Below, piece after piece: positions 774 through 31,883 of a stretch of 64,000 nucleotides of DNA. The DNA comes from Streptomyces sp. B21-083 (GTDB lineage: Bacteria > Actinomycetota > Actinomycetes > Streptomycetales > Streptomycetaceae). The DNA lies in NCBI RefSeq assembly GCF_036898825.1, contig NZ_JARUND010000002.1, forward strand, positions 3,224,001 to 3,288,000, written 5' to 3'. The position numbers and the translations under genes are program-made. The notes under the pieces are model-generated. The model searched no databases. It saw nothing but the letters and a program-made list of their open reading frames with translations, and had not been told where the DNA came from. The first letter of the stretch is position 1, and the number at the start of each line of letters is the position of its first letter.

Positions 774-1622
774 TCAGGAAGGGAGCAGGCTCCGGGCCTC
801 GGCTCGGCGCAGGAACTCCAGGGAGCTGCGGGCGATGTCGGGGGCGTCCAGGGCGCCGCCCTGGATCTCGACGGACACCAGACCGCGGTGGCCTAGGTCG
901 GTCAGCGCCGCCAGGACCGGCGGGAAGTCGATCTCGCCCGCGCCGAACTCCAGATGCCGGTGGACCCCGCGGACCATGTCCTCGATCTGGACGTTCAGCA
1001 GGTGCGGTGCGGCCAGGTCGACGCAGTCGAGCAGCGTCGGCTCCTCCACGCAGTGGGCGTGTCCGAGGTCGAGGGTGACACCCAACAGCTCATGTCCGCC
1101 GAGGAGTTCGCGCAGTCTCAGACACTTGGCGACCGTGTCGACGAACATGTGCGGCTCGGGCTCGAAGGCCAGGGCGACCCCGTATGCCTCCGCTGTCTCC
1201 AGCGCCGCCCCGACGCCGGCGGCCAGCCGCCGCCAGGCCTCCGTCTCCGGTATGCCGTCCGGGGCAGGCCCGCTGCACAACTGGACGGTGGGCGAGCCGA
1301 GTTCGGCGGAGATGCGGACGGCGCGCCGCAGCAGGTCGACACGGCGGTCCGGTTGGCCGGACATCAGCGTCGGCTGGTGCTTGGCCCAGGGGTCGAGGAA
1401 GTAGGGCGCCCCGGTCTCGACGGTGACGGTCAGCCCGAGACGCGCCAACCGCGCACGTACACCGGCGACTTGGCGGCCGAGGTCGTCGGCGTACGGGTCG
1501 AGGTGGTTGTGGTCGAGGGTGAGGGCGACACCGTCGTAGCCCAGGTCGGCGAGGATCCCGAGGACGTCGGAGAGGCGGTGGTGGGTGAACCCGTTGGTGC
1601 CGTAGCCGAATCTCAGGCCCAT
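774..1622 (-). CDS. Sugar phosphate isomerase/epimerase-type TIM-barrel protein of the ebo cluster
   Basis: A 282-residue protein begins MGLRFGYGTNGF at 1622. It has the xylose-isomerase-like TIM-barrel pattern and its metal ligands: a Glu in AFEPEPHMF, Asp and His in LDLGHAH, His in HRHLEFGAGEIDF and Glu in LVSVEIQGG. Members of this superfamily isomerise or epimerise sugars, often with a divalent metal. The real substrate cannot be read from the sequence. It lies 22 bp downstream of the UbiA-like gene and about 150 bp upstream of the EboA gene on the same strand, so it is probably co-transcribed. It may fill the EboE role of ebo clusters, but it seems short for that protein, so I give no symbol. 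Confidence 0.8.
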   Translation of the reverse strand: MGLRFGYGTNGFTHHRLSDVLGILADLGYDGVALTLDHNHLDPYADDLGRQVAGVRARLARLGLTVTVETGAPYFLDPWAKHQPTLMSGQPDRRVDLLRRAVRISAELGSPTVQLCSGPAPDGIPETEAWRRLAAGVGAALETAEAYGVALAFEPEPHMFVDTVAKCLRLRELLGGHELLGVTLDLGHAHCVEEPTLLDCVDLAAPHLLNVQIEDMVRGVHRHLEFGAGEIDFPPVLAALTDLGHRGLVSVEIQGGALDAPDIARSSLEFLRRAEARSLLPS

Positions 1623-1644
1623 GGTGCGCCCTTCGTCGAATGGC

Positions 1645-2661
1645 TCATGTCGGGGACACCCGTCTCGCCAGGCGCTGTGCCACCGGGTGTACGGCACCCA
1701 GGAGCGCGGCGGCGACAGGCGCCCCCGCACGCGCCGTGAGCGCCGCCTGCAGCGGGACCATGGCGAGAATGCCCGCCCCCACCGCACGCCGGACGGAACT
1801 CCCGCGTGGATCGCGTACGGCACGCGCCTGCGCCCAGCCGTACGTCCCCAGGTAGGCGAGAACTCCGGCGGAGGCGACGGCGGTTCGGGCGATCTCCTCG
1901 CGTGGCACGGCTCGCCGGGGCGGCAGGAGCGCCGGGAGTACGGAAGGCAGCACCGTCGACAGTGCCGTGGCCGACGACACGGCGAGCGTCGTGGCGGGCA
2001 GCCGCGCGGGCGCGCCGGAGATCTCGTGGCGGCTGAGGGCGGTGAGCGTGTAGGTGTGCACCCCGGTGAGGAGGGCGGGGACGGCGCCGCGAGCGAGCGC
2101 GACGGCTGTGCCGCCGCCCCGGGCCCCGTGTGCCGGCGGACTGCCGCCACCCGCGACCGCACCCGCCAGCACGTCGAGCGCACGGGCACCCGCCATCGCC
2201 GCCGGACCGGCCGGAGTGGACTTCAACTTCAGGTCGTACGCCCAGATCAGCGCCGTCAGCGGCAGAGCGACGGCGAGTCCGCGTCGGCCGCCCGACACCG
2301 CGGCGAGGCCGAGGCCGGCGCCGGTCAGGCCGGTGGCGACGGTCAGTGCGGTCCGGCGCGGCACACGGCCGGAGGGCACCGGACGGGCGGGCCGCTCGAC
2401 CGAGTCGACGGCGGCGTCGGCGTAGTCGTTGAGGGCCATTCCGGCCCAGTAGAGACAGACGGAGGAGGCCATCGCGCCGACCGTCCGAGGACCGAGAGGG
2501 CGGCCCGCCGCTGTCGCGCCCGCCAGGATGTCACCGGGGACACTGAGGGCGGCCGGGGCTCGGACCAGGCTCAACAGGTCGGAAAATGAAGGCGGTTGGG
2601 ACCTGGTGCTTTGCGGGGGTTGTCGGGAACCGGCGGGGGGGAATGATTTCCGGTCACTCAT
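1645..2661 (-). CDS. eboC: UbiA-like prenyltransferase EboC
   Basis: I chose the ATG at 2661 (MSDRKSFPPAGS), giving 338 residues; an upstream ATG at 2760 would add a Cys-rich stretch that looks non-coding. The protein is a polytopic membrane protein of the UbiA superfamily. The first Asp-rich motif is NDYADAAVD, followed by the usual basic RPARPVPSGRV, and the second loop motif is YDLKLKST. UbiA enzymes use prenyl diphosphates bound through Mg at these Asp motifs. In ebo clusters the UbiA-like protein is thought to act in membrane passage of a precursor rather than quinone synthesis. It is the first gene of the leftward operon seen here. Confidence 0.8.
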   Translation of the reverse strand: MSDRKSFPPAGSRQPPQSTRSQPPSFSDLLSLVRAPAALSVPGDILAGATAAGRPLGPRTVGAMASSVCLYWAGMALNDYADAAVDSVERPARPVPSGRVPRRTALTVATGLTGAGLGLAAVSGGRRGLAVALPLTALIWAYDLKLKSTPAGPAAMAGARALDVLAGAVAGGGSPPAHGARGGGTAVALARGAVPALLTGVHTYTLTALSRHEISGAPARLPATTLAVSSATALSTVLPSVLPALLPPRRAVPREEIARTAVASAGVLAYLGTYGWAQARAVRDPRGSSVRRAVGAGILAMVPLQAALTARAGAPVAAALLGAVHPVAQRLARRVSPT

Positions 2662-3083
2662 GGCCACATCATTGCCGAAATGCGTGAAAGCCAATGGCAT
2701 AAGTGGATGTTGATTCTTGTGACGAACGCGACAACAACACATCGTTGACAGGGACTTCACATTACTGACCCGTCGGCATCCTCACGGACAGGTCGCACGC
2801 GACGCACGCCGACGGGGCCGCCCGGGCTCAAGCAGGCTGCGGGCGCAGGAACTTCACGCCTCGGTGGCAGGGCTGCCACGACCGGCGGAAGACCTGGCCG
2901 GATACATACAGAGAGCGCACAGGGAACACACAACGCGCTATGGACATGCCATGTCATGGACCCTTAAATCTCAGTCAACATCCGCGTCCCCAACGCGCGT
3001 TGGACGTCACCAGTCCCTACCCGGCCTTCCACCACGTCCCGCCGCGCGTCCTCCCACCTGCTCGAACAAGCCCGAGGAGACCG
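2662..3083. other. Divergent intergenic region, ebo operon / M4 protease
   Basis: This 420-bp region separates the leftward ebo operon from the rightward protease gene, so it should hold both promoters. The half near 2690-2760 is AT-richer than the surroundings and contains TTGACA at 2746-2751, but I cannot pair it with a convincing -10. No gene or strong hairpin was seen. The protease ribosome site GAGGAGA is at 3074-3080. Confidence 0.5.
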
Positions 3084-22137: not shown

Positions 22138-23241
22138 ATGAGCAACGAGACCCTGCTGCTGGTGCGCAGGCTGCGCCACGGCCACTGGGTGGCTCTGGAC
22201 GTGCTGGTCGCGCTCCTGCTCGCCGTCGCCTTCGCGTCCGCGGCCAAGCTGAGTAACGACCTGCCGCAAGCCGTCGTCGCCCTGGCCGCGCTGCCCGTCG
22301 CGACCCGGCGCGGTCGGCCTCTGCCGTCTTTGGCGGTCTCGCTGGCCCCGGCGGTCACCGCGCTGCTCCTGGGCGTGGAGTCCGCCTGTCTTCCGGTCGC
22401 CGTCGTGCTCTACTCGGTCGGCGCGCAGGAGCCGCGCAGGCGGGCCGTCATCGGCCTCACCGCCGCCCTGGCCTGCGTGGTCGCCGCGCTGCTGGCCGCC
22501 GTCTGGCCGTTCTGGACGCAGGCGCTGGGCAGCGCCGGGTTCGGTCTGGCCCTGATGGGCCTGTCCTGGACGGCGGGGCTGGCCGTCCGCGAGCAGCAGC
22601 TGCACGCGGCCCGTGCGGCGGAACGGGCCGTGGTCGAGGAGCGGCTGCGCATCGCCAGGGACCTGCACGACGTCGTCGCCCACAGCATGAGCCTGATCAC
22701 GATGAAGGCGGGTGTCGCCGGGATCGTCGCCGAGACCCGGCCGGATGAGGCGCGCGAGGCGCTGCGGCTCATCGAGACCACCGGCAGGGAGTCGATGGTG
22801 GAGATGCGCGCCATGCTCGGCATGCTGCGCTCGGAGACCGGTGACCTGACCCCGGCGCCGCGGCTGCGCGACCTGCACGCGCTGGCCGCGAACGCGGGCA
22901 TCGAGGTGGACCTCCGTGTCGACACCGGCGACCTGCCCGAGGGGGTGGGCCTCGCGGTGTACCGGATCGTTCAGGAGGCGCTGACCAACGTGGTCAAACA
23001 CGCGGGAACCGGCTGCCGGGTGCGGGTCGCCGTACCCGAGCCAGGAGTGGTGGAGGTCGAGGTGTCCGACGGCGGCCGGGCAGCCCCGCGCGGCGGCAGC
23101 GGGCACGGGTACGGGTACGGACTGCTCGGCATGCGCGAACGCTGCCTGGCCTATGGCGGGCAGCTGACCGCGGGCCCCCGCCCCGAGGGCGGCTTCCGCG
23201 TGGTGGCGCGCCTGCCCTACGCGGGCAAGGAGACGCCGTGA
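22138..23241 (+). CDS. Orphan sensor histidine kinase (NarL-partner type, HisKA_3)
   Basis: The 367-residue protein starts at the ATG at 22138 (MSNETLLLVRRLRHGHW). Four or five membrane segments fill residues 20-150. The phospho-acceptor is His177 in ARDLHDVVAHSMSL, and the ATPase domain has EALTNVVKHAG and GYGLLGMRERC. Such kinases sense envelope or membrane signals and phosphorylate a NarL/LuxR-type regulator encoded directly downstream. Here no regulator follows. The sequence after the stop contains a dispersed repeat (23391-23545) and a transposase tail, so the partner seems to have been lost. The kinase itself looks intact. Confidence 0.9.
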   Translation: MSNETLLLVRRLRHGHWVALDVLVALLLAVAFASAAKLSNDLPQAVVALAALPVATRRGRPLPSLAVSLAPAVTALLLGVESACLPVAVVLYSVGAQEPRRRAVIGLTAALACVVAALLAAVWPFWTQALGSAGFGLALMGLSWTAGLAVREQQLHAARAAERAVVEERLRIARDLHDVVAHSMSLITMKAGVAGIVAETRPDEAREALRLIETTGRESMVEMRAMLGMLRSETGDLTPAPRLRDLHALAANAGIEVDLRVDTGDLPEGVGLAVYRIVQEALTNVVKHAGTGCRVRVAVPEPGVVEVEVSDGGRAAPRGGSGHGYGYGLLGMRERCLAYGGQLTAGPRPEGGFRVVARLPYAGKETP

Positions 23242-23390
23242 CGGGAGTGTGGAGCGCCGGGACCGGAGTGTCAACACGCGCGCACAAGGGTCCACATGGG
23301 CGCGCCCCGCACCCTGCGACGGGGAGCGCGAACGAGCCCATCCCCGCGTTGCGCATGACGCCGACGCGTACCCGGCCCACCCGAACGCGG

Positions 23391-23545
23391 CGAGAAGGCG
23401 GCACCCCCCGCACAGGGGCGCCGCCTTCTCTCGTGCACCGGAGCCACCATCAGGTCGCTGAGGGTCGGGGTGACCGACGACAGCTCCGGGTCAACAGGCC
23501 TGCGGCCTGGGGATGTTCGCGCGGCTGCCGGTGGCCGCTCCCGGT
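23391..23545. repeat. Dispersed repeat element, copy A
   Basis: About 155 bp here match 32724-32880 with only about a dozen differences and small gaps. The element starts with an 11-bp hairpin (GAGAAGGCGGC with its complement around a C/G-rich loop), then a conserved part containing GGTCGCTGAGGGTCGGGGTG, a second hairpin CAGGCC-TGC-GGCCTG at about 23496-23510 and a third GC-rich arm. Paired positions of the first stem change together between the copies. Both copies lie at the 3' ends of convergent genes, so a terminator or structured-RNA role is likely. It is not a coding repeat as far as I can see. Confidence 0.8.
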
Positions 23546-23597
23546 CTTCCTCAGCACCGCAACCGTCGCTGTGCTCGTCATCTGGCTACGTTCATGA
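23541..23597 (+). pseudogene. 3' tail of an IS5-type transposase gene
   Basis: The last 18 codons before the TGA at 23595 read PVFLSTATVAVLVIWLRS. This is the typical C-terminus of IS5-family transposases (VFLGTATAAALVIWLR-like). Nothing upstream of 23541 belongs to the transposase, because the dispersed repeat begins there. It is a short relic and shows that an insertion element once stood between the kinase and the GNAT gene. Confidence 0.55.
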
Positions 23598-26774: not shown

Positions 26775-26945
26775 GCGTGTCCCCCTACGTGCGAGTCGTA
26801 GCGGTTGGTCGCTCTGCTGCGCTTCGCGTCGCGGACGGTTTGGTTCTGACGTCCAGACAACACGCGTGACGGAAACCGGGGTACCGTCAGAAGGAGTGTC
26901 GAAGGGTGTCGCTTCCGCTACCGCCCGTCACAGAAGGTTGTGAGG

Positions 26946-28304
26946 ATGAAGACTCCGAACGACAAGCTCGCCCACTGGCTGGACCGGTCGAGGATGAGCC
27001 GCGGGGAGCTGGCGCGCCGGGTGAAGTCCAAGGCGCTTCAGTGGAGTCAGCCACATATTTCGCCGGATACGACTCGTATCCGGTTCTGGCTGCAGGGCGA
27101 GACACCACGGACGCCCATCCCTGACGTGCTCGCCGCCGTGTTCTCCGACCACTTCGGTTTCCGGGTCACCACATACGATCTCGGGCTCGGGGAGACGGGT
27201 TCACCCGACGCCGCGCTCGTGTACAACTCCTCCTACGCGGCTACGGTGGAAGTCGTCGCAGACCTGGGGAGAGCTGACGTGGACCGACGGAAGTTCCTTG
27301 CCGCCGCACCGTTCGCCGCTGTGGCCGGGGTGGGTCCCTCGCGGGACTGGCTGCTCAACACACTTGATCAAAAGGCGAATTCAGCGCCGGGGCCGCGCGT
27401 GCGCCTTGAAGACGTGACCGCGGTGAAGAACATGTTCACGACGTTCCAGCGTATGGACATCTTCCAAGGCGGAGGCTCGGGCCGTCTGGTCCTGGCCGAC
27501 TACATGAACGAGCACGTCTATCCCCTGCTTCGACGTGCCCATAGCGAGGACGTACGACGGGCGTTGTGCGAGGCTGCCGCCGAACAGACGTACCTGCTCG
27601 GCTGGATGGCCTACGACAATGGCGAACACAGCATCGCGCAGCGGTACTTGATCCAGTCCCTGCGCCTCGCCCAGGAGTCTCATAACGCACCGCTCGGCGC
27701 ACATGTCCTCGCGGGCATGGCCGACCAGGCGACGCTGCTCGGCGACCCCGCCGAAGGCCGACGCCTCGCGCAAGCGGGACGCCAAGGGCTGCCGAAGACG
27801 ACCTCGCCGGCCTGCCTGGCGGACCTGTGGTGCCTGGAGGCACGGGCCCTCGCACGGCTCGGCGAGAAGTCGGCGGCAGCGCACGCGGTGGCCCAGTCCG
27901 AGAAGGCATACGAACAAGTCCGCCCGGCAAGCGAACCGGACTGGGCGGAGTTCATCGACCCCGCGTACCTGCACGGCGAACACGCGAACACCTTTCGGGA
28001 CCTGGGCGACGCGGATGCGGCCGAGGCACACGCGCGCCTGTCCATCGGCCACGCCACGAAGCAGAAGCGAGCCCGCCGAGGAGCGATGTCACAGGCCGCG
28101 CTCGCTGTCTCCCACCTCCAGCGGAACGACCTCGAGGCGGCGTACGCGGCCGGCGTCCGGACGGTCAAGTTGTCGCAGCGGGTGAAGTCGTCGCGGTGCG
28201 TCGAGGCCGTAAAGGATCTACAGACGCGTATGCAGCCGTTCGGTCGGCATCGACTTGTGGCGGATTTCAACGAACGGGCGCGCGAACTGGTGGCTGCGGC
28301 TTAG
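26946..28304 (+). CDS. Large helix-turn-helix regulator with TPR-like C-terminal part
   Basis: I use the ATG at 26946, nine bases after AGAAGG; a GTG at 26940 is too close to it. The 452-residue protein starts with a DNA-binding-like segment (KLAHWLDRSRMSRGELARRVK, then WLQGETPRTPIPDVLAAVFS). A short DRRKFLAAAPFAAVAGVG stretch near residue 113 looks like a twin-arginine signal but is internal, as in other regulators of this type. The remainder is made of helical repeats (LLGWMAYDNGEHSIAQRYLI; LCEAAAEQTYLLGWMAY; AEAHARLSIGHATKQK) like TPR units. It probably senses a ligand or partner and acts on the divergent ATPase genes. Confidence 0.8.
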   Translation: MKTPNDKLAHWLDRSRMSRGELARRVKSKALQWSQPHISPDTTRIRFWLQGETPRTPIPDVLAAVFSDHFGFRVTTYDLGLGETGSPDAALVYNSSYAATVEVVADLGRADVDRRKFLAAAPFAAVAGVGPSRDWLLNTLDQKANSAPGPRVRLEDVTAVKNMFTTFQRMDIFQGGGSGRLVLADYMNEHVYPLLRRAHSEDVRRALCEAAAEQTYLLGWMAYDNGEHSIAQRYLIQSLRLAQESHNAPLGAHVLAGMADQATLLGDPAEGRRLAQAGRQGLPKTTSPACLADLWCLEARALARLGEKSAAAHAVAQSEKAYEQVRPASEPDWAEFIDPAYLHGEHANTFRDLGDADAAEAHARLSIGHATKQKRARRGAMSQAALAVSHLQRNDLEAAYAAGVRTVKLSQRVKSSRCVEAVKDLQTRMQPFGRHRLVADFNERARELVAAA

Positions 28305-28308
28305 AAGT

Positions 28309-28325
28309 GCACAGAAGAACAACAT
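28309..28325 (+). repeat. Short direct repeat, left side of the low-GC island
   Basis: The sequence GCACAGAAGAACAACATG closely matches GCGCAGAAGAACAAAACATG at 30857-30876, in the same orientation. The 11 bases CAGAAGAACAA are identical. The two copies flank the low-GC gene and may mark the ends of a transferred unit. The 130 bp between here and the end of that gene hold nothing else recognisable. Confidence 0.45.
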
Positions 28326-28457: not shown

Positions 28458-30713
28458 CTACCACGACACACCACGCGCAATACGCAAGAATTCAGCTGCA
28501 TCAACATGCAGGTCGAGTTGCGTCTGAGGAGGAAGGGATGAACGCCCAAACCTGCCCCCTTTATGCAGACTACTGGTATCTACAATCGCCTCCATTGAGC
28601 GCGTACCACTTCGGTATTTGGAAACCCTAAGAAACGCTTCCACGACACCCCCGTCGATATCTTTTTGTTTCCTCCCATTTAGATCAACATGTTTAATTCC
28701 CGCCCGTCGCAGGAAGGAGTGAAGCAAAAGGGCACGCCGCAGGACTAGGTACGGGTCCATTTCGACCCCTTCTTCAGCATTAGGGCCTACCACATCGACA
28801 TAGCCTTGGAGGCGGCTTATGAAATCGATCCCCTTGGAGTTTTTGTAGGACACGCTTGAAGCTTTCCGCGAGAAGTCATCGTAGCGGCTACTGGTTCCTC
28901 CAGCGAAGACGAATATAGACCGACCAACGGGATGCACTATCTGGCCCTCTTGGAATTTTCCGTCCTGCATTGGTGCCAAGAAGTATCGAAGCCATCCCAA
29001 ATCTTGAGCCTGGAATGGACTGTCAAACTCGTCCCAAAAGACCAGAGGGACATCGCCTTCTAGAGCCCGGTCACGAACCCTATGCAGAGCCGATACGAGA
29101 TCGCCGACTGACTGGAATTGTGACATGTTGAACTCTAGCGGCTCCCTTGACGTGGCTTTAAGCGATTCCATGATCTGCTTAACAGCGAACGACTTGCCAT
29201 CGCCGGGCGAACCGAATACTGCAATCGATCTGGGCTTAATCTTCTCCCTGTGCTCTAGATAGTCAATGAGAAGACTTTGAATGGAGCGAAGGGCTTCCAT
29301 CTCGCGGCGATCAACTATCAGTAGCTCCCCGAATTTCCCCAGCGGCACGTTAGCCATAACATCCGGGCCTTGGGGACCTTGAAGTGCGATGGTTCTCGCA
29401 GTCGCGTACAGGTCCTCGCCACCCAAAGATTCCTGAAGGATTGACCAACCCACATTTTTTTGAGACCCGTCGCGCGAGGGCTCAGGTATCCGGGACTTAC
29501 CAACGCGCGGTGGGATGCAAATTTCATTCAAACAGTCGACCGGGAATTCAATGAGTGAAGAGTTATCCCCCTCCCTCTTGAAGCCCTGGTTGTATACCTG
29601 ATGCATTGCAGAGAGACCCAATTCAATTCCTCCAGAAAGGACTTCATGAAATCTCTCGGCCGCAAGGGTTGGTGCAAGACCTCTCGGGGTCGCCCGGAAC
29701 TCAATCAACTTACGCGCAATAGCCGCGGTCAACGTTTGACTGTAGCCAAACATTTTTCCATCGCTATGTTCTCTCTCCCAGGTTCCCTCGGTGTAGTCGG
29801 TATCAAAATACAGAGTATAGGGTGGCGTCGCAGAGCGGTCGACCAATAGAACGCCCGAGGGTCCGAGAGAAACAATCAGCCTTCGACACTTGGCAAGGTC
29901 GTGAACTCTCTCATTCCTCTCAAGCTCGTTCAATATATCCTGAGCAGAGCGTTCCCACGACAGGCCACGACTCACCTCAGCTCCTGCGTCACGAAGGCTC
30001 TGAGCAGTAGTTATTACTATCAATCTATCAGCCATCGTAATCGATTCACTGATCGCCCCTTCCGATGGAGTCAGCTGGGAGTAAATTGCATTCCAGAGTT
30101 GGCCTTCCCGTCTGGCTTCCCCTCTTAGTCGCAGGTTGAGGAGTAGCCAAGGAGGATCTTCCCAGGCATCTTGATTGTCGTGGCCAAATTGGACACCAGG
30201 AACGCGAGGCCAATTTCCGCCTATTTCCCCGAACCCGAGACCAGGGTCATTAAGAATAACCATTCTGGGGACTTCGTCATTCGAGAGGTTTGGGCTCGAA
30301 AATTCATCCAGTTTCTCCTGAGCATGAAAGCCTACAAATTGCCTAATCCGCCATCGACGTTTACTCCTGGCATCTTCGGTCTCATCCTCATCCTCAGGAT
30401 GACGAGGAAAGAGATCGAGAAGGTTGAAGGAGTGATGGACCTTCCTGTTGCTTACTGCAGGGCAGCCGCGTAGCGGCTCCAGTCCGCGAACGTCGGCGAT
30501 TTTCCCCTCATCAATGCGACAGGCCCGTTTGACAAGAGACGTGAGGAGAATTGTTCCACCCCAGTGCCAAAGCATGCTGGACCTGACGGTCAGGCGTTCT
30601 TCGGATTGCGGAAAATGGCCCGGCGGAAGGCCTATAGCCCAGTCAACGGTCGCATCCCCATCCACTATTATGATGGGAAGGTTAGGGGTTGTGGCTGGCG
30701 CATCGCCGGTCAT
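28458..30713 (-). CDS. PfkB-like module fused to AAA+ ATPase, foreign low-GC gene
   Basis: With the ATG at 30713 (AGGTG five or six bases upstream; GTG at 30722 possible) the protein has 751 residues. Residues 1-330 resemble a degenerate PfkB/ribokinase fold: IIIVDGDATVDWAIGLPPG, a GG at GGTILLTSL, WLLLNLR and RLIVSLGPSGVLLVD. The usual catalytic GAGD is replaced by GYSQ in KMFGYSQTLTAAIARKL, so kinase activity is doubtful. Residues about 460-751 form an AAA+ domain: Walker A GSPGDGKS at 501-508, Walker B VPLVFWDEFD with Asp561 and Glu562, and a sensor-1-like FAGGTSS. GC content and codon use are far from the host. It stands alone between direct repeats beside an IS5-type relic, as expected of a single-gene defence or stress-response system, but function is unknown. 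Confidence 0.85.
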   Translation of the reverse strand: MTGDAPATTPNLPIIIVDGDATVDWAIGLPPGHFPQSEERLTVRSSMLWHWGGTILLTSLVKRACRIDEGKIADVRGLEPLRGCPAVSNRKVHHSFNLLDLFPRHPEDEDETEDARSKRRWRIRQFVGFHAQEKLDEFSSPNLSNDEVPRMVILNDPGLGFGEIGGNWPRVPGVQFGHDNQDAWEDPPWLLLNLRLRGEARREGQLWNAIYSQLTPSEGAISESITMADRLIVITTAQSLRDAGAEVSRGLSWERSAQDILNELERNERVHDLAKCRRLIVSLGPSGVLLVDRSATPPYTLYFDTDYTEGTWEREHSDGKMFGYSQTLTAAIARKLIEFRATPRGLAPTLAAERFHEVLSGGIELGLSAMHQVYNQGFKREGDNSSLIEFPVDCLNEICIPPRVGKSRIPEPSRDGSQKNVGWSILQESLGGEDLYATARTIALQGPQGPDVMANVPLGKFGELLIVDRREMEALRSIQSLLIDYLEHREKIKPRSIAVFGSPGDGKSFAVKQIMESLKATSREPLEFNMSQFQSVGDLVSALHRVRDRALEGDVPLVFWDEFDSPFQAQDLGWLRYFLAPMQDGKFQEGQIVHPVGRSIFVFAGGTSSRYDDFSRKASSVSYKNSKGIDFISRLQGYVDVVGPNAEEGVEMDPYLVLRRALLLHSFLRRAGIKHVDLNGRKQKDIDGGVVEAFLRVSKYRSGTRSMEAIVDTSSLHKGGRFGRSSLPPQTQLDLHVDAAEFLRIARGVSW

Positions 30714-30856
30714 TTCAATCACCTGAGATGCAGAGAGACGCTAGGTCCACTCCCAGACTATCGGGTCCACAGGATCATGCCACCCGAGGCAGACCAGAGA
30801 TCTTTAACGGCTGAGGTTACGGCGGTGGGAGGTCACGTCCGGTCTTGGCGATAAGC

Positions 30857-30876
30857 GCGCAGAAGAACAAAACATG
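30857..30876 (+). repeat. Short direct repeat, right side of the low-GC island
   Basis: Partner of 28309-28325 (CAGAAGAACAA shared). It coincides with the point where the IS5-type transposase relic breaks off (reading inward, GGTCAT is followed by non-transposase sequence), which supports a junction here. Confidence 0.45.
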
Positions 30877-31066
30877 ACCAGGGCTGCCGCTTTGCGGTGT
30901 GGAGGAAGACGTAGCCGCGCTTGTGGTAACGGGCTACCGCCGCGCGGGACTGCTTCCGGCGATTGATCGCTCGCATGGCGGATGCCGCGTCGGCGAAGGT
31001 ACTCGCGGTACAACTCGTTGCTGTATGCCTTGTCGGGCGCCAGGCTGTCAGGTTGCTTGGCGTGGT
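30870..31066 (-). pseudogene. Degenerate IS5-family transposase fragment
   Basis: Minus-strand frames read SLAPDKAYSNELYREYLRRRG (near 31000-31060), a DDE transposase segment with the DKAYS motif. After a gap, another frame reads MRAINRRKQSRAAVARYHKR and GYVFLHTA, the segment around the last catalytic Glu region and the C-terminus. The part between them has been deleted and the frames differ, so it is dead. The C-terminal tail ends at the direct repeat at 30857. A related tail survives at 23541. Confidence 0.7.
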
Positions 31067-31105
31067 CACCCGAGGCCGAACCATAGGCCGCGGAGTCGGC
31101 CGTAC

Positions 31106-31142: not shown

Positions 31143-31883
31143 ATGCGCATCGGAGAGATCGCCACGCTCGTCGGAGTCACTTCGCGGACGGTGCGGCATT
31201 ACCACCACATCGGTCTCCTGCCTGAGCCGCAGCGGCGAGCCAACGGATACCGCACCTACAGCCTTCGAGACGCCGTTCTGCTGGCCCGGATCCGGCGGCT
31301 GACCGAGCTCGGGCTCGCCCTGGACGAGGTGCGGGATGTCCTCGCGGGCGACGCTGGGCGCGAACTGGCCGAGGTGCTGGGCGAGTTGGACGCCGACCTC
31401 GCCCGTCAGGAGCACGAGATCCAGCAGCGCCGCAGGGTGCTGGCAGGTCTTCTGGAGGGCCCGCTCACGCCGGACGCGCCGCTCTCCCCCGCGCTCGTAG
31501 AGCTCCTGAAGGCCGCGCCTGTCACCGCGTCGTCCGCCGCCGCCAAGGATCGCGAACACCTGACTCTGCTGGACGCGACAGTCGGCGGAAACGCGGTGTA
31601 CGCAGCTCTGCGGCCGCTGGCTGAGGACCCCGCGATGCTCCTGCTGTACGAACGGCTGGACGACCTGAACGGAGCCACTGCGGACGATCCGCGGATCGAG
31701 GCGCTGGCCGAGGACCTGGCCGCCGCCGTGCCGGACGAGGTGCTCGCGGCGATTCCGGACGGGGGCCCGGTGGTGACGGGCTTCGGACAGGCGCTGCTCG
31801 CCGACTACCCGCCCGCCCAGGCCGAAGTGGTGCACCGAGTGATGCGGAAGCTGACCACTCGGATGAATCAGAGGCCGTCATGA
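31143..31883 (+). CDS. MerR family transcriptional regulator
   Basis: The 246-residue protein starts MRIGEIATLVGVTSRTVRHY with the winged-helix motif of MerR proteins (LPEPQRRANGYRTYSLRDAVLLARIRRL) and a coiled-coil dimerisation helix up to about residue 105. The remaining 140 residues form an effector domain rich in Ala, Asp and Leu without Cys ligands, so it is not a metal sensor and more likely responds to a small hydrophobic compound. It probably controls its own promoter (31106-31136). The ATGA overlap with the membrane protein gene at 31880 makes a two-gene operon. Confidence 0.92.
   Translation: MRIGEIATLVGVTSRTVRHYHHIGLLPEPQRRANGYRTYSLRDAVLLARIRRLTELGLALDEVRDVLAGDAGRELAEVLGELDADLARQEHEIQQRRRVLAGLLEGPLTPDAPLSPALVELLKAAPVTASSAAAKDREHLTLLDATVGGNAVYAALRPLAEDPAMLLLYERLDDLNGATADDPRIEALAEDLAAAVPDEVLAAIPDGGPVVTGFGQALLADYPPAQAEVVHRVMRKLTTRMNQRPS

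Follow-up and report, generated by a model that had tools for sequence, protein, structure and literature searches.

What is the role of a solitary gene of low G+C content (GC) in the genome of Streptomyces sp. B21-083? The gene lies in a 64,000-nucleotide stretch of contig NZ_JARUND010000002.1 (positions 3,224,001 to 3,288,000; hereafter the window), and the original prediction, made from the sequence alone, had taken it for a PfkB-like domain that has lost its catalytic base, joined to an active AAA+ ATPase. Our analyses indicated that the gene probably encodes a pseudokinase–AAA+ ATPase of nucleotide-signal conflict systems of the phage-defence type, that is, a ligand-gated remodeller carried by mobile elements and present here in a reduced, single-gene form. 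The family to which it belongs is widespread and is unnamed in the libraries searched.

A ribokinase-fold pseudokinase joined to an AAA+ ATPase

Both domains are indeed encoded by a single low-GC open reading frame (ORF), whose 751-amino-acid frame holds no internal stop (Table 1) and which is the sole family match in the 10.5-Mb host genome. The gene has a GC of 0.528, against a mean of 0.698 (standard deviation 0.027, minimum 0.598; z-score -6.3) for 1144 overlapping stretches of the same length, none touching the gene, and its composition therefore differs from that of the host. GC at third codon positions (GC3) is 0.53, whereas no other mechanically called ORF between 15 and 45 kb has a GC3 below 0.64. 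The motifs cited earlier for the protein (VDGDATVDW, GG at residues 52-53, VSLGPSGVLLVD and GYSQ) are all present.

A search of 84,980 species genomes gave 318 stretches encoding a relative at tblastn E <= 1e-3, and the best 80 of the 318, all of which pass phmmer at 1e-10, were used; the remaining 238 may include other AAA+ proteins. Together with the window copy and the copies of genomes G226 and G406 these make up the 83 family members considered below.

The full-length AlphaFold2 model, built with 68 aligned family sequences, had a predicted local distance difference test score (pLDDT) of 90.1 and a predicted template-modelling score of 0.92, and the model of the N-terminal domain alone (400 residues, 19 sequences) a pLDDT of 84.5. 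Foldseek comparison of the full model with the PDB ranked ribokinases first (Arabidopsis thaliana ribokinase 6ilr, E 1.3e-8), interspersed with ClpB and ClpC AAA+ chains. When the N-terminal domain was searched alone, A. thaliana ribokinase was matched at E 3.6e-10, 181 chains of the 400 hits had E <= 0.001, and the best 50 of the 400 matches were all ribokinase-family proteins by name; names among the matches listed are ribokinase, HldA, ketohexokinase, nucleoside, adenosine and pseudouridine kinases, fructokinase, PFK-2 and other sugar kinases. Structure prediction and fold search, the check that had been proposed, thus assigned the N-terminal half to the ribokinase family and the remainder to AAA+ proteins (ClpB/ClpC), confirming the predicted ribokinase-type outline. 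Since the template-modelling scores by target length were 0.40-0.56 with root-mean-square deviations of 7-11 A, the N-terminal domain is best regarded as a distant, embellished version of ribokinase.

The GD and GG motifs of ribokinase contact the sugar. The glycine and aspartate at residues 19-20 are each conserved in 77 of the 78 members with letters there, G52 in 77/77, S252 and W253 in 81/81 and E254 in 80/81. The catalytic GAGD, present in all eight PfkB proteins of the host (8/8), is replaced by GYSQ as had been predicted, and the column of its aspartate holds Asp in 0/83 members; the outlier L081 has an Asp two columns before it. The family thus shares with the ribokinase/PfkB family (PF00294) the fold of residues 14-390, the N-terminal GD..D and GG motifs and the VSLGPSG strand-loop, and differs from it by the missing catalytic Asp (83/83), the fusion to AAA+, the lack of a Pfam match and the weak profile match.

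Walker A and Walker B are intact in the C-terminal AAA+ domain, again as predicted, and two further residues, R634 (invariant in the 83 members) and R705 (82/82), are taken as arginine finger and sensor 2. Because the catalytic aspartate is absent and the Walker and arginine residues are kept, the ATPase looks able to work and the kinase does not, judging from these residues. The protein resembles the Clp-like AAA+ ATPases (PF00004) in its intact Walker motifs and conserved arginines and in its Foldseek matches to ClpB, ClpC and ClpA; it differs in being a single AAA+ module behind a pseudokinase, in a model without a Clp-type N-domain.

Distribution and novelty of the family

Family members were found in Chloroflexota, Chlorobiota, Acidobacteriota, Planctomycetota, Actinomycetota, Armatimonadota and others, and in one archaeon (L012), whose copy groups with an Anaerolineae copy (L049). 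A quick tree, in which four long branches were flagged, sorted the members by phylum only partially. The gene is rare in the host genus, being carried by 2/392 genomes with the host included (1/391 others), and 396 genomes drawn from the phylum gave four matches, two of which (G000 and G406) are members. The other two, L004 and L005 (E 4e-5 and 2e-4), were dropped as proteasome-type AAA ATPases, judged by look.

Two of the 72,556 plasmid records carry a relative, at 32-34% identity, and a pattern scan of viral contigs gave at least one confirmed locus. On a 117-kb viral contig of IMG/VR lies the coding sequence for a relative's AAA+ part (L115:6001-6924).

None of the NCBIfam models describes the window protein and no PHROGs family matched it at E 0.001. 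The combination of PfkB-like, AAA+ and RyR domains (see below) was not found in the literature searched, judged mainly by titles and the beginnings of abstracts. This architecture may form a class of its own within nucleotide-signal conflict systems. SLOG-type signal systems are reportedly treated by Burroughs et al. 2015 in Nucleic Acids Research (NAR).

RyR domains in the relatives

Scanning the 83 members with a family-specific RyR profile showed C-terminal RyR domains in 69, of which 49 have a tandem pair and 20 a single domain. This profile matches ryanodine receptor chains of the PDB at 5e-23, and Pfam RyR (PF02026) was found in six of the seven members scanned (E 5.7e-9 to 5e-24). Three of the 14 RyR-less members (L045, L048 and L075) are cut short by contig ends and are left out of the true losses, and the ORF following L082 may hold the RyR part. 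The window protein has no RyR domain that could be found, nor has the host genome. The copy on a Methylobacterium plasmid is annotated as 'RyR domain-containing protein'.

Of the 69 RyR-bearing members, 64 have the motif EHxxW at a position beyond residue 400, and two of the five exceptions are cut by contig ends. EHxxW has the spacing of H75/W78 in RyDEP and may correspond to the pocket of that protein. According to the available part of a 2026 preprint (PMC13232231), proteins with an RyR domain bind or cleave 2'/3' cyclic ADP-ribose (cADPR), the signals of Thoeris, and phage RyR proteins cleave or sequester cADPR and act against defence. The family is thus like RyDEP and RyR Repeat12 (PF02026) of that preprint in the RyR domains of 69/83 members, 64 of them with EHxxW at the RyDEP spacing. 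RyDEP homologs, as the same part of the preprint presents them, were studied as phage anti-Thoeris proteins, whereas the RyR domains of the family are attached to a pseudokinase–AAA+ protein and the window copy has none.

Conflict-type neighbours of the relatives

The profile for SLOG-like genes (GVTGHR...GGTGEIV), built from 22 of the same ORFs, detected such a gene in 29/83 loci, two of them fused to the member; of the 28 ORFs that stand separately, 27 lay within 300 bp, where about 1.3 would be expected if they were evenly spread over the 998 kb of flank. A TrkA–RyR-like neighbour aligned over at least 250 amino acids in 19/83 loci; its consensus has hydrophobic N-terminal segments by eye, and one representative (L018) gave Pfam TrkA_N at 3.4e-18 and RyR at 2.5e-13. 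This channel-like neighbour, about 600 amino acids long and with a TrkA NAD-binding domain and the ryanodine-receptor module (Pfam, L018), recurs at L018:7672-9504, L037:5509-7332 and L065:13267-15099. Large nucleoside triphosphatase (NTPase)/WD40 proteins of one BLAST cluster were present in 30 loci, and the DUF4062 profile matched within 5 kb in 13/83; one scanned ORF contained DUF4062 and NACHT, and one of these large ORFs (L050) also gave a TIR-type match.

Two ORFs near the G406 member gave TIR-type and ThsB-type matches. In that actinobacterium a Clp-like-looking ORF and two TIR-type ORFs follow the member (L087:8518-14201), with an RyR match 13 kb further on. The Methylobacterium plasmid encodes a 2082-amino-acid SIR2 protein with a ThsA-type match (L116:356-6604), 1.4 kb from the RyR-bearing member and separated from it by a transposase and a helix-turn-helix gene.

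The homologues therefore are not restricted to housekeeping contexts: some, chiefly those of Streptomyces, occur on prophages, pSAM2-like elements and plasmids, and others have SLOG-like, TIR, SIR2, DUF4062/NACHT and RyR-channel neighbours; this clustering with conflict genes or mobile elements is given as raw counts. In PADLOC-DB, the sole defence library searched, no match at E 0.001 was obtained for the single representatives scanned of the pseudokinase–AAA+–RyR, SLOG-like and RyR–TrkA channel-like proteins.

Two known groups of systems come nearest. Thoeris and the TIR/SIR2/SLOG systems resemble the family in the SLOG-like genes near 29/83 members and in the TIR (ThsB-like) and SIR2 (ThsA-like) genes, each found near a single member; they differ in that the AAA+ pseudokinase is not a part of Thoeris and that none of the ten ORFs between 23.2 and 32.7 kb of the window form a TIR (ThsB) and ThsA pair. 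The NTP-dependent conflict systems (eLife 2020, PMC7159879) likewise couple NTPases to nucleotide signalling by SLOG or TIR folds, and three family members gave a sub-threshold Pfam bpMoxR match; the available part of that text makes no mention of RyR, ribokinase, PfkB or DUF4062.

The Streptomyces clade of the window copy

One clade of eight members (Shimodaira-Hasegawa-like approximate likelihood ratio test 99) unites the window copy with the copies of G226, of five named Streptomyces and of 'Actinobacteria bacterium OV320' (L006). In four of the eight, clear genes of mobile elements are found no more than 10 kb away. L002 (G226) lies in a prophage-like locus with terminase (2.7e-106), portal (7.3e-15) and ParB-like genes, and L008 in another, between an endolysin and a DNA primase/polymerase, while L006 and L016 are near genes for a pSAM2-type RepSA (1.7e-150 and 3.2e-150) and FtsK-like proteins. 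Weaker mobile signs were seen at L059 (FtsK-like gene about 8 kb away) and L068 (integrase 1.3 kb away), and none by eye at L064. A further Streptomyces copy is situated on a linear plasmid and adjoins two tyrosine recombinases.

RyR domains were kept in L016 and L059, and six of the eight, the window copy included, have the RyR-less form. Since this form is common to members in prophage-like and pSAM2-like loci, the short form is conserved in its own right. In the other six clade members for which long flanks are available, GC is 0.52-0.55, against 0.67-0.72 around them. For the 71 members whose flanks exceed 3 kb, the GC difference averaged -0.005 and the member was lower in 34, so low GC is a mark of this clade and not of the whole family.

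Proposed function and alternative explanations

Starting from a dead kinase, a live-looking ATPase, conflict-type neighbours and mobile carriers, we infer, as the simplest interpretation, the following course of events. The dead kinase domain would bind a nucleoside, a sugar or an ADP-ribose-like ligand without phosphorylating it, and in full-length relatives the RyR domains would read or clear a signal of the cyclic-ADP-ribose type. Ligand binding would switch the AAA+ ring, which would then remodel a target, for example a partner effector or a phage complex. Production or sensing of the signal would fall to the SLOG-like protein, with the channel-like RyR–TrkA protein as one effector. The window copy would be mobile-element cargo that senses by its pseudokinase domain alone.

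A role in conflict or defence is supported because the relatives are borne by prophages, pSAM2-like elements and plasmids or stand beside SLOG-like, TIR, SIR2, DUF4062/NACHT and RyR-channel genes, and the reading as a sensor-driven remodeller fits because 69/83 members carry RyR, a cADPR-binding family. The original prediction of a sensor-driven remodeller and a one-gene phage defence system gained support to that extent; antiphage activity, the ligand of the pseudokinase and the target of the ATPase are presumed. When the clustering of homologues with defence genes was examined, as had been suggested, some were near conflict genes or mobile elements, and no defence gene was found among ten ORFs around the window copy.

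Several observations weigh against this reading. Because the window protein and its genome lack RyR, the strongest functional clue does not apply directly to the window copy, and EHxxW also occurred, anywhere in the protein, in one (L008) of the 14 RyR-less members. Among the ten ORFs between 23.2 and 32.7 kb none gave a defence-type Pfam match. The collection PADLOC-DB 2.0.0 holds no model for the window protein, whose sole hits were to SspF and HerA, at E 0.016-0.043 and confined to a short P-loop segment, and none for L009, the single relative scanned. The SLOG-like genes are so called because of similar motifs and a sub-threshold Pfam YAcAr match (E 0.0055, in the fused L073); Pfam found no match in the single-gene SLOG-like copy tested, the SLOG-like profile had no credible relative in the PDB (best E 0.15), and 54/83 loci, some on short contigs, have no SLOG-like gene. 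The long-branch member L083 adjoins a gene of the inositol monophosphatase family and a nucleotidyltransferase gene, which belong to sugar and nucleotide metabolism. Finally, Pfam PfkB (PF00294) gave no match in the window protein up to E 1, and hhalign of the N-terminal domain with the eight host PfkB proteins gave a single short, weak match of 1.7% probability, which covered the VSLGPSG segment in the expected register. The relationship to kinases is therefore one of predicted fold, with weak PfkB evidence at the sequence level.

An unlikely, though the best surviving, alternative is counter-defence: the mobile element would disarm the nucleotide-signal immunity of its host by binding the signal or by AAA+ dismantling of defence complexes. 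Because the phage RyR proteins that cleave or sequester cADPR are anti-defence proteins (available part of PMC13232231), prophage-borne relatives could be of this kind, which also tells against a defence role. Two Streptomyces relatives lie inside prophage-like loci, and TIR and SIR2 genes occur near some relatives. However, both prophage copies lack RyR, many relatives adjoin SLOG-like, DUF4062/NACHT and channel-like genes in the layout of a defence system, and no match was obtained among 50,697 phage records (tblastn E 1e-5), with at least one locus in viral contigs.

Less probable again is a housekeeping or metabolic role, in which a sugar-sensing AAA+ regulator with no relation to phages would have been acquired by transfer. 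PfkB-like proteins without kinase activity act as sugar sensors elsewhere, and the neighbours of L083 would suit such a role, but the gene is present in two of the 392 genus genomes, host included, all seven clade members measured have low GC, and the family has mobile-element carriers and conflict-gene neighbours. Least probable is a decayed, non-functional remnant of an RyR-containing system stranded beside transposase fragments, for although the genome lacks RyR, no partner was found beside the gene and the adjoining transposase remnants are decayed, the 2.26-kb frame is open with all AAA+ motifs intact and the RyR-less form is shared by six of the eight clade members, prophage-like loci and places near pSAM2-like genes included.

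A broader version of the ligand-gated remodeller reading is put forward as a speculative and rather doubtful proposal: the family could be a new class of immune signal receptor. Its dead ribokinase-fold domain would respond to a signal of the ADP-ribose or nucleoside type by driving an AAA+ remodeller; complete loci would add RyR domains, a SLOG-like protein and a RyR-gated membrane protein resembling a potassium channel, as a bacterial counterpart of the gating of ryanodine receptors by nucleotide signals. Should the remodeller reading be right, bacterial nucleotide-signal immunity would include a branch where sensing and work both fall to a dead sugar kinase and an AAA+ motor, and the full form would join RyR domains to SLOG-like and channel-like proteins. 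The kinship of the RyR of animal calcium channels with immune receptors of the cADPR type, a link raised in the available part of PMC13232231, would become testable. A defined gene set is supplied by the pseudokinase–AAA+–RyR, SLOG-like and RyR–TrkA channel-like genes.

Surroundings of the gene in the window

Table 1. Positions of the gene, its domains and motifs, and adjoining features in the window.
Feature	Position	Strand	Basis or remark
Whole gene, pseudokinase–AAA+ protein	28458..30722	minus	754 codons from GTG 30722; 751 from ATG 30713
N-terminal ribokinase/PfkB-fold domain, ~residues 14-390	29544..30674	minus	AlphaFold2 and Foldseek
GYSQ (residues 323-326) in place of catalytic GAGD loop	29736..29747	minus	Probable, by alignment position and motif order
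C-terminal AAA+ domain, ~residues 460-746	28476..29336	minus	Pfam PF00004 E 2.2e-4, 22.1 bits (cut-off 21.2); Foldseek ClpB/ClpC
Walker A GSPGDGKS (residues 501-508)	29190..29213	minus	Lys507 in 83/83
Walker B VFWDEFD (residues 558-564)	29022..29042	minus	Asp561 and Glu562 in 83/83
Remnant of 60 bp with 88% identity to the 3' end of another locus of the genome (L141, IS630-like transposase)	30796..30855	minus	Family name from ORF reading
Decayed transposase fragment, presumably IS5-like, directly upstream of the gene	30893..31058	minus	tblastn with transposase-like ORF of L140: 76% and 70% identity, E 1e-14
Imperfect 18-nt direct repeat, left copy; weak candidate for an insertion border	28305..28322	plus	Family D2, 89% identity
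Imperfect 18-nt direct repeat, right copy	30853..30870	plus	Family D2
Left neighbour, 454 amino acids, helix-turn-helix regulator by look	26940..28304	plus	No Pfam match at 0.01
Right neighbour, MerR-type regulator	31143..31883	plus	Right flank

The gene had been predicted to stand alone in a mobile-looking place. Both parts fit, the first with the lack of defence-type Pfam matches in the ten nearby ORFs and of RyR in the genome, the second with the two decayed transposase fragments. Pfam found nothing in two ORF frames over the transposase remnant that tblastn did match, and we take its insertion sequence (IS) family to be IS5-like. The C-terminus (VFLSTATVAVLVIWLRS) of an ORF at 23238-23597 resembles a transposase tail; Pfam found nothing there.

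Comparison with possible empty sites showed both flanks in 0/7 loci. In 3/40 other genomes the match to the left neighbour extended over most of the protein (84, 72 and 68%), with short stretches or no match elsewhere, and similarity of the right-flank DNA to five relatives from the best matches starts at 31105/31106, immediately ahead of the MerR gene.

The host genome contains three SLOG-like places, none of them linked to the gene. At L131 (G000:C2, near 3024379) a SLOG-like gene (1354-1974, plus strand) converges with a gene at 1984-2979 (minus strand) for a putative membrane protein with two helices, as judged by eye, and the two are possibly another signal–effector pair.

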